Shown: piece after piece, positions 16,600 through 21,821 of the stretch
How positions within the stretch are numbered: the stretch's first letter is position 1
How the letters are laid out: every line of letters starts with the position of its first letter
Source: a virus
IMG/VR virus record: IMGVR_UViG_3300032242_000782
Span: 1-22,039 of that record
DNA length: 22,039 nt
Direction: 5' to 3' (one strand)
Notes under the pieces: generated by a model
Databases searched by the model: none
Told to the model about the DNA's origin: nothing
The model's input: only the letters and a program-made list of their open reading frames with translations
Made by a program: the position numbers and the translations under genes

Positions 16600-17856
16600 T
16601 TAATCCGGATCAAGCTCAAAATCTGGAGTATCGTCTACAAAACTCAATCTTAGGATTGCATCCTTGACTCGATCTCCGGGATTTATAATCACGCTGTTAA
16701 ATGTACCTTTGTGATCTTTTATTTCCACACGAACAGGTTTATTGGTATCTCGTAGATAATCAAAAGTCAACTTCATTGCGGAGTTAGGAAATTTAGTTGG
16801 GTTACCTATGATTTTAAATCTACCATCTTCATCTGTAGGATGTACAGTATAGAACCCGTGACGTTGGCTTTCAGTGATAGGCTTGCTACTCAAATACTCT
16901 GGGTATTGTTTGTTAAAATGGCGCATAATAATACCGGCCATTTGATTAGCCTGATTCTCTTCGGGACTACCTGTTATACCGCTGTTGGCATTTAGCTCGT
17001 GCTCTGTATCTTGTTTATAATGACAAAGCTCGTGCGCCACAGTACGCAGGATATCATTAGGATGTCTGTTCATCAAGGCCACATATAGATGATGGGTGTC
17101 ATTTTCATACTTGCCAAACGTAGGTTGTACATCGTCGTGTATATGCGCTTCAAACTTCATCTTTGGCAGAGAAGTTAGCTCTAGATGTTTCATAGCTAGC
17201 GGCAAGAACTTGGAAAACATATCTGTAAATTTAGTCTTATGGGCCAGTATGTTTTTTACAGATTCATTTATAGCCGCAGTATCGCCCTCGGGGCCAACAT
17301 AGTAGGCACGGAAATCAATATTTGGATATTCTTTTTTAAGCGAGTTAAACACAGCAAGATTGCTACGGCTATCATCATACAGGCGTATGTGATCGTATAG
17401 GCCTGTATCTGCATAGCGACGAACCCATACTGCTTTTTTCTCTGCAGGTATTTCATCTCCAGGTAAATTGCCAGCACGGTGTACGTGTACACGGCTCATA
17501 TCAATACCTAGATCGTGAAATGTTTTTAAGAATAGGTTCTTGTCATCAAAATCTGCTCGGGCTGTGAGAAAAATAACTTTAGAAGTAGGACTATGATCTA
17601 ATATAGTTTTTAGCTTGTTGATCATTGGCCCAATTGGTTCGCTTTCCTGATTGAATTTTTCAGCGTTACGGAATTCACCGAAATCAAATTCTTCGCCGGG
17701 CTGTAGTTGGTAATTGTTAAATTCTTGATTGGTCAAAGTACGGACCACACGCCCATTGTTGACAACTTTAATTTTAGCTGTCGTGTGAAGCAGTGTGTCA
17801 TCGATATCAAAAATGACTAGACTCTGCTTGGGCTTGTTGAATTCTTTAGCTCTCAT
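16600..17856 (-). CDS. HAD phosphatase - HExxH zinc peptidase fusion
   Basis: This encodes a 418-residue fusion. Residues about 10-200 form a HAD-type phosphatase resembling the phosphatase half of polynucleotide kinase: FDIDDT (D17, D19), FLTAR (T98), and LYDDSRSN (D161, D162). Residues about 205-325 hold a zincin domain with AHELCH (H275, E276, H279) and a candidate third ligand at E299 or E300. Residues 331-418 are a small beta-rich domain with no known motif. INE|S (196-199) and ITE|S (327-330) lie at the two domain borders and match the (L/I)xE|(A/G/S) consensus of T4 prohead protease. The N-terminus MRAKEF is similar to other capsid-targeting-like starts here. Confidence 0.85.
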   Translation of the reverse strand: MRAKEFNKPKQSLVIFDIDDTLLHTTAKIKVVNNGRVVRTLTNQEFNNYQLQPGEEFDFGEFRNAEKFNQESEPIGPMINKLKTILDHSPTSKVIFLTARADFDDKNLFLKTFHDLGIDMSRVHVHRAGNLPGDEIPAEKKAVWVRRYADTGLYDHIRLYDDSRSNLAVFNSLKKEYPNIDFRAYYVGPEGDTAAINESVKNILAHKTKFTDMFSKFLPLAMKHLELTSLPKMKFEAHIHDDVQPTFGKYENDTHHLYVALMNRHPNDILRTVAHELCHYKQDTEHELNANSGITGSPEENQANQMAGIIMRHFNKQYPEYLSSKPITESQRHGFYTVHPTDEDGRFKIIGNPTKFPNSAMKLTFDYLRDTNKPVRVEIKDHKGTFNSVIINPGDRVKDAILRLSFVDDTPDFELDPD

Positions 17857-20958: not shown

Positions 20959-21007
20959 CTTCTGGATATACGGGATATTTATCAGGATTGTTATCCGGAT
21001 CAGTCAT
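20915..21007 (-). CDS. Possible tiny Asp/Pro-rich peptide (30 residues)
   Basis: An ATG at 21007-21005 overlaps the end of the nuclease gene and opens a 30-codon frame (MTDPDNNPDKYPVYPEDDGT and on). It overlaps the 44-residue frame in another register, so at most one may be real. Support is only the coupled position. Confidence 0.28.
   Translation of the reverse strand: MTDPDNNPDKYPVYPEDDGTDRPRNPYSPV
20976..20983 (-). promoter_or_regulatory. T4-type late promoter match
   Basis: GATAAATA on the minus strand matches TATAAATA at seven of eight positions. It lies in the gap after the nuclease gene and would serve the 44-residue frame and the capsid-targeted protein gene. A similar GATAAATA at 20004-20011 overlaps a stop codon and is less convincing. 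Confidence 0.4.
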
Positions 21008-21821
21008 CGCTTGCATTGGCACCACACTTAGCACGTTTAGCATTGGTTAAGGCTCCAAAGTCAACTGGCCATTCTTGTCCAGGTTGTAGTTCTTTAGCAT
21101 TAGCTGGATAGGCAAACTTAACACCAGCAGTAGATTCGATCTGTGTAATTGGCAAACGGAATTTAGTCAAATCGTTGCCTAGATTAGGATATGGAGCTGT
21201 GTGCGGGAACGCCCAACCAGCAACTTCATTAGTTTGATTATTGATAACAATCTTATAGAAACCGTGAGGAACAACTACACCTTTGCCGATAGTTTTATCA
21301 CCTGGTCCGTATACACCACCTACATATACAGTATATGATTGATTGCGCTGTACTGTCCATCCTCGAACACTAGTTTCTAATAGTTTCCAAATACCACGAT
21401 TTAGGCTACCTGCTTGCGGACTCATATTGGTCATCAGGAAGGATTCAAACTCCACTTGAGTGTCCCACGATAGGTCTCCATCTGGAGACATATGTCCTTT
21501 GTCGTAGCCTGTACCAGCGTAATCTTGGGGAGTGGCTCCACCTTGAACTGATTGGTCAGTAGCAAAAGCATTAGTGCGAGCGACACAGCCGAGAGCGTTT
21601 TGAGGTAGTAGTTCATAGGTCACATACTTTGGTAGTTTAGCAGCCGCATCATAGCCTACTAGGTATGCTTGTCGGCAAATAGGTTGTACACCTACTGTTT
21701 GAGGGAAACCATAAGGTGCGTGTACCTTACAAGTTTGTGGATCTTGTGGTGCTCGTTGTGTCCAAGCAAAACTTGAAACACTTACAAGGGCAAGAGTTAG
21801 TGCTAATAGAATTTTTTTCAT
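21000..21821 (-). CDS. Secreted DNA/RNA non-specific endonuclease (NUC1/EndoG family)
   Basis: This encodes a 273-residue nuclease with a signal peptide. Residues 1-19 (MKKILLALTLALVSVSSFA) have the basic start, hydrophobic core and small-residue end of a Sec signal, probably cleaved after SFA; C31, C49, C79 and C266 could form disulfides outside the cytoplasm. The betabeta-alpha-metal catalytic motif is D107-K-G-H110 in YDKGHMSPDGD; the metal ligand N141 lies in SLNRGIWKLLE, with E149 after it, as in Serratia nuclease. All key residues are present. A ribosome binding site (AAAGG) and an AATAAATA late promoter precede it. Its length is normal for the family. Confidence 0.93.
   Translation of the reverse strand: MKKILLALTLALVSVSSFAWTQRAPQDPQTCKVHAPYGFPQTVGVQPICRQAYLVGYDAAAKLPKYVTYELLPQNALGCVARTNAFATDQSVQGGATPQDYAGTGYDKGHMSPDGDLSWDTQVEFESFLMTNMSPQAGSLNRGIWKLLETSVRGWTVQRNQSYTVYVGGVYGPGDKTIGKGVVVPHGFYKIVINNQTNEVAGWAFPHTAPYPNLGNDLTKFRLPITQIESTAGVKFAYPANAKELQPGQEWPVDFGALTNAKRAKCGANASDD

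Follow-up and report, generated by a model that had tools for sequence, protein, structure and literature searches.

Prohead-protease-like sites separate the enzyme domains of a probable cargo polyprotein in a T4-like jumbo phage

Within a 22,039-base fragment of viral DNA (the whole stretch analysed, here called the window), one gene encodes a 418-aa protein that joins an N-terminal tag, a HAD phosphatase, a zinc peptidase and a C-terminal module, with a site of prohead-protease type at either end of the peptidase (Table 1). This protein is quite probably a polyprotein that a T4-like jumbo phage targets to its capsid as cargo and cuts with its prohead protease. The prohead protease of T4, gp21, cuts (L/I)xE|(A/G/S) in head proteins, the bar marking the cut, and an earlier note made from the letters of this DNA had proposed that the product could be a polyprotein cleaved in that manner; at the level of sequence and structure evidence, the interpretation is supported. 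The note had recognized the fusion and had both sites right, but it overlooked the membership of the protein in a large modular class as well as its tag-like N-terminus (MRAKEF...).

Table 1. Features of the window, with positions counted from its first base
Feature	Position	Strand	Remarks
Fusion protein, 418 aa	16600..17856	(-)	Tag + HAD phosphatase + zinc peptidase + C-terminal module
MRAKEFN, residues 1-7	17836..17856	(-)	Similar to the targeting half of tags on standalone relatives (MRAKQFINE|D, MRAxEF..)
HAD phosphatase domain, residues 8-195	17272..17835	(-)	PHROG match, alignment and T4 Pnkp fold match
Site 1, I196-N-E|S199	17260..17271	(-)	Prohead-protease-like; HAD/peptidase linker
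Zinc peptidase domain, residues 199-329	16870..17262	(-)	HELCH 275-279, conserved GSPxEN
Site 2, I327-T-E|S330	16867..16878	(-)	Prohead-protease-like; peptidase end
C-terminal module, residues 330-418	16603..16869	(-)	Missing in the version of syntenic record G016
Neighbour, 388 aa	17963..19129	(-)	N-terminus MKVVSLLE|GTKIKTKRVVTE|ANVAAK
Neighbour, 290 aa	19126..19998	(-)	N-terminus MTTLLYHSFANLCE|SLIFE|T; candidate tagged cargo
Neighbour, 276 aa	20007..20837	(-)	MKSFKDYLYE|T; relatives MKxFxxYLxE|A
Head protein, 517 aa	9972..11525	(-)	12 loose sites; PHROG 14154 head and packaging, 9.6e-12
DNA/RNA non-specific endonuclease	21000..21821	(-)	PF01223, 1.2e-41; signal-peptide-like N-terminus; 69% identity in G016

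The motifs named in the earlier note lie where it had placed them (FDIDDT at residues 16-21, LTAR at 97-100, LYDDS at 159-163, AHELCH at 274-279, INES at 196-199 and ITES at 327-330), and the proximity of the two sites to domain borders holds when these borders are set independently by relatives with one domain only. Among relatives on viral contigs, many span only residues 1 to ~199 and others only ~198 to 328, and standalone HADs end in ...DGSVKTIK, exactly where the site begins in the fusions. The HAD domain matches the PHROG 415 polynucleotide kinase (1.5e-6) and carries DxDxT, the motif II Thr, the Lys, an acidic motif IV and the HAD fold, with D17, D19, T98, K141, D161 and D162 invariant across the aligned HAD relatives. 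Its model lies closest to the T4 Pnkp 3'-phosphatase (5uj0; Z 13.9, rmsd 2.7, 135 residues), and by profile and model the domain resembles that enzyme. The peptidase matches the phrog_87 metallo-protease (5.6e-4), has an invariant H275-E276-x-x-H279 in its alignment and, modelled alone with AlphaFold2, adopts a zincin fold (pLDDT 85.8). As judged from profile and model it is a Wss1/IrrE-like zincin; Wss1 (5xbn) gives the best match, tied with other gluzincins, and assignment to a single zincin subfamily was dropped, the best Z being 8.2 with many ties. Pfam matches to M78/DUF6782 are weak and below the cut-off, with no PolyVal model among the hits, and neither the HAD nor the peptidase profile matched an entry in a PDB sequence search. 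For the C-terminal module, the IMG/VR search returned no relatives and AlphaFold2 gave a poor, low-confidence model. In the AlphaFold2 model of the full 418-aa protein (mean pLDDT 72), values fall below 50 at residues 1-7, 197-205 and 328-342 and in parts of the C-terminal module; both INE|S and ITE|S therefore lie in linkers and not in folded helices.

The 22-kb window holds no protease gene. A syntenic record of 322,512 bases (G016, which holds L031; identity 85% in NrdA and 74% in the fusion) encodes an S77 prohead protease, as do six other related records, and its version of the fusion is without the C-terminal module. The gp23-type major capsid protein of this record reads SLAE|SATAG at the T4-equivalent propeptide end, and those of related records read YLAE|S, YLAE|A and YLME|S. 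Since these ends follow LxE|(S/A), both sites in the window protein share the form of the group's predicted propeptide end. The gp22-like scaffold of the group contains 15 strict sites as against 3.4 expected.

The window protein is one of a wider class, in that dozens of related lake phages encode interchangeable multi-enzyme chains with the same type of linker. Longer relatives reach 1424 aa and about ten segments, with sites between many of the modules, which include HAD, zincin, GH19, LysM, dCMP deaminase, cytidylyltransferase, SpoT-like HD, DUF6934, DUF5661 and DUF6321 as well as short basic modules (NFADGKNPGRKGLAKRSG..., SWTKKYKKSIDCSNPKGFSQKAHCAGR...). The longest chain (L087:4932-9203; 1424 aa) has 10 strict sites and a start matched by the zincin profile, and gave no Pfam match at E 0.01. 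In a 1145-aa chain (L052:4914-8348), a SpoT/RelA-like HD module (TIGR00691, 2.2e-9) sits between LxE| sites and is, by its profile match, a possible head-delivered ppGpp hydrolase. A basic C-terminal module, NFADGKNPGRKGLAKRSGVNTKASVSSLRKTAKHS..HWLANMKAGR, recurs in L021, L025, L035, L105 and others, mostly directly after xE|, and may, given its composition, bind packaged DNA. Synechococcus phage Bellamy gp122 (L190:3974-4129) is a standalone protein of 51 aa made of a tag and a basic module, MKSFKQFQE|SWSNKYKKSIDCSNPKGFSQKAHCAGRKKR, and that basic module also occurs inside lake polyproteins. No NFADG module was found in the phage records searched.

The presence of a peptidase between the two sites raises the question of whether that module cuts the chain itself, as has been proposed for the metallopeptidase domains of polyvalent proteins (Iyer et al. 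2017). Those proteins, found in phages and conjugative elements, are akin to the window protein in that they combine several enzyme domains, are believed to be delivered to the host along with the DNA and frequently include a metallopeptidase (PMC5512222); likewise, a single phage polypeptide here unites at least two effector-like domains of unrelated kinds, the HAD and the zincin. Their processing is ascribed to the metallopeptidase (MPTase) domain, with self-processing proposed for P1 DdrB and N4-type proteins, whereas here prohead-protease-like sites occupy the linkers even where no peptidase is present: chains without any peptidase (L003, L103, L105 and L098) are divided into modules by the same sites, which makes self-cutting by the zincin less likely. 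The motif is, moreover, that of the capsid protein propeptide in the same phage group, and the vRNAP of N4, with a domain of this kind, goes into the virion uncut (PMC5512222). Self-cutting is accordingly judged unlikely.

Standalone relatives of the peptidase link its internal site to an N-terminal tag. They begin MRAKQFINE|DIKDLKTHKENF, MRFREFTE|DIEGL, MRAAQFLTE|N or MHITELLE|G, a tag with its site being present in 23 of 34, and these tags look like the T4 capsid targeting sequence. When the sequences are aligned, E198 of the window protein shares its column with the E|D or E|G of the tags, so that internal site 1 corresponds in position to where an N-terminal tag ends. At its own N-terminus, the window protein reads MRAKEFNKPKQ, which has the tag form M-K/R..F/L.. 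common to the standalone relatives and lacks a hydrophobic-x-E|small end, both of its sites being internal; MRAKEF thus appears to resemble the targeting half of a tag without the x-E| cutting half. This fits the T4 capsid targeting sequence, in which targeting depends mainly on the N-terminal part (residues 4 and 7) and processing on residues 8 and 10 (PMC9026906). Genome-wide in G016, a simple N-terminal tag motif was not above chance (18 vs 13.4 expected).

From such alignments the fusion probably arose by the joining of tagged genes, and the alignment of the internal INE|S with the standalone tag end would also suit an uncut multidomain enzyme whose motifs are mere relics of those tags. 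That reading is improbable, for P3, P1 and P1' alone are kept at site 1, and in every adjacent HAD-peptidase fusion examined (INE|S in the window; IRE|S, ISE|G, IHE|S, LHE|G, LHE|S, IRE|G and IAE|N elsewhere), with the rest of the tag gone. Conservation of the sites in homologues, which the earlier note had set as a check, is thus borne out for site 1. Furthermore, sites are nearly absent inside the domains: in the family statistics, based on 100 dereplicated relatives and the strict motif [LIVF]-x-E|[AGSND], domain interiors hold 4 strict sites in 14,733 residues against composition expectations of 47.7 and 28.1 for the two domains, although the relatives form one family and are non-independent, so that these and the other family statistics and P values overstate the case to some degree. 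No site occurs in fused HADs, for which 28.9 are expected, and standalone HADs have 3 where 19.5 are expected. The whole proteome of G016 has 285 against 280 expected, and avoidance within the domains is hence not a general property.

As a count within a single protein, the sites are not significant. INES and ITES are the sole matches in the 418 residues, whether to [LI]xE[AGS] or to the looser [LIVMF]xE[AGSNDT], and at least two strict sites arise in 9.6% of composition shuffles of the protein; the count is therefore weak alone, and it is the positions of the sites that carry weight. Across the 100 relatives, the strict motif stands at 16 of 18 fused peptidase starts, 18 of 20 peptidase ends and 19 of 34 HAD ends that continue, where the interior rate predicts 0.1-0.2 per junction class. 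The HAD end has a site in 18/31 proteins that continue and in 0/22 that end there, and the peptidase end has one in 17/19 with a further module as against 9/32 where the protein ends. Site 2 is correspondingly retained where a module follows (PITE|S, PITE|T, PITE|G, VISE|S); at protein ends it has mostly decayed (PITT, PIV, PITD). Among the 34 HAD junctions, 13-15 are without the motif, some having near-variants (IREE, VVEV) and others joining the next module without any.

It is very unlikely that flexible linkers with much Glu and many small residues produced the motif by chance. Shuffling of the junction windows yields 1.8 sites at peptidase starts, 2.7 at peptidase ends and 5.3 at HAD ends, far from the numbers observed. 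When BLAST homology breakpoints in multidomain chains were picked blind to the motif and the domain definitions, 71 sites fell in the 2353 residues within 5 aa of a breakpoint (3.0%), as against no more than 0.25% past 12 aa; LxD and LxK controls gave no peak. A reversed motif is partly enriched at the breakpoints, as chance linkers would have it, but this excess appears to owe in part to a recurrent GENFADG border. Modules are clearly exchanged at these points, yet a DNA-level recombination junction that aids such exchange without cleavage is scarcely credible as the meaning of the motif, since the 47 junction sites are 47 different DNA 12-mers with no shared nucleotide motif among them, which places the conservation in the protein and not the DNA, and since the motif also ends capsid protein propeptides, where no exchange is involved.

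Among known systems, the internal proteins IPI-III and Alt of T4, which have a capsid targeting sequence and are cut by gp21, are similar to the cargo polyprotein proposed here in their short M-K/R-x-x-x-F/L tag, in the hydrophobic-x-E|small end found on the tags of the relatives and in the S77-type protease of the phage group. In T4, however, there is one protein per chain and the N-terminal propeptide alone is removed, whereas the sites of the window protein separate several domains and its own tag has none; no claim is made that the protein belongs with the T4 internal proteins, since it lacks the N-terminal cleavage site that defines them. The giant phages phiKZ and SPN3US (gp175/gp245) likewise have a gp21-like protease that cuts ejection proteins after Glu, but in the available portions of these accounts the identified gp245 cuts, self-cleavage apart, remove N-terminal propeptides, and no cutting between enzyme domains is described there (PMC5694885, PMC10052503). 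The scaffold and core proteins gp22 and gp67 of T4 share the presence of many sites per chain for one protease, but their fragments are debris or small peptides and not folded enzymes.

Published virion proteomes of cultured cyanophages bear indirectly on the presence of such tagged proteins in virions. The cytidylyltransferase of S-SM1 (T4-GC190), detected in purified virions (PMC3037559), begins MKKFSAFLNE|A. In the virion proteome of S-CREM2, gp6, gp12, gp13, gp14, gp15, gp136 and gp154 were detected (PMC10665884), and virion proteins of this phage have tags including those of a SAM hydrolase (MKDFDSFLEE), a Cas9-like protein (RFASFMAE|A), gp13 (MKDLHSFLTE|Q), an APH-like kinase (KRFDAFLTEE), gp15 (MNFSEFNE|S), gp136 (MQTFSMFFSE|D) and a cytidylyltransferase (MKNFSSFLTE|A). 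A general tag pattern has 9 of its 16 S-CREM2 hits in the virion (p=0.0037) and a narrower pattern, chosen after the proteins had been seen, 8 of 10 (p=1.9e-4), for a preparation in which the authors consider co-purified contaminants possible (PMC10665884). In the virion-detected, Cas9-like gp12 (L271:7704-10313), RFASFMAE|A lies at residues 18-26, and the true start may differ from the annotation.

Beside the fusion gene lie three further genes with tags. Most examined relatives of the 388-aa neighbour keep xE|A directly before AN(V/I)AAK of the conserved domain, behind a variable tag. In a blastp comparison of window ORFs with the syntenic G016, none of the three had a match, and the segment they occupy is possibly an inserted cargo island. 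The 517-aa head protein looks, from its sequence, like a second polyprotein: 10 of its 12 loose sites share columns with a 604-aa relative in G016, and the stretches between them differ. Basic, Cys-rich and other stretches are exchanged between the sites of the two proteins.

Under the reading of the 418-aa protein as capsid-targeted cargo, its tag, MRAKEF, would direct the chain to the core of the prohead, just as the capsid targeting sequence does in T4. The S77 prohead protease, which is predicted to remove the gp23-type propeptide at LxE|(S/A) and to cut the site-rich scaffold during head maturation, would also cut INE|S and ITE|S, leaving three pieces in the head, namely a phosphatase like Pnkp, a zinc peptidase of Wss1/IrrE type and the small module from the C-terminus. 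These freed pieces would then be ejected with the DNA and be active during the first minutes in the new host, the HAD perhaps in nucleic-acid end repair or nucleotide dephosphorylation and the peptidase perhaps in the removal of host or DNA-bound proteins.

Capsid targeting tags, S77 cleavage after Glu and multidomain injected proteins of the polyvalent kind (PMC5512222) are each already known singly. What appears to be new is their combination, i.e. multi-enzyme chains with prohead-protease-like sites between folded modules, for which a search of the open literature found no description of multi-enzyme phage chains cut by a prohead protease. It is reasonably likely that freshwater T4-like jumbo phages have a general cargo system, in which polyproteins of interchangeable enzymes and basic peptides, with about ten segments at most, are packed into the head under one tag, cut there by the protease of capsid maturation and injected together as early effectors; as part of that same reading, these would comprise a phosphatase, a zinc peptidase, GH19/LysM proteins, a deaminase, a nucleotidyltransferase and a SpoT-like HD hydrolase. 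If this is true, tailed phages gain a true polyprotein strategy, and the capsid-maturation protease doubles as the processor of injected enzymes. The sites would amount to a sequence rule (a tag plus LxE| at module borders) that predicts which phage proteins travel in the head. With this rule, the early effectors of huge uncultured phages could be read from their sequences and tested directly against existing virion proteomes.
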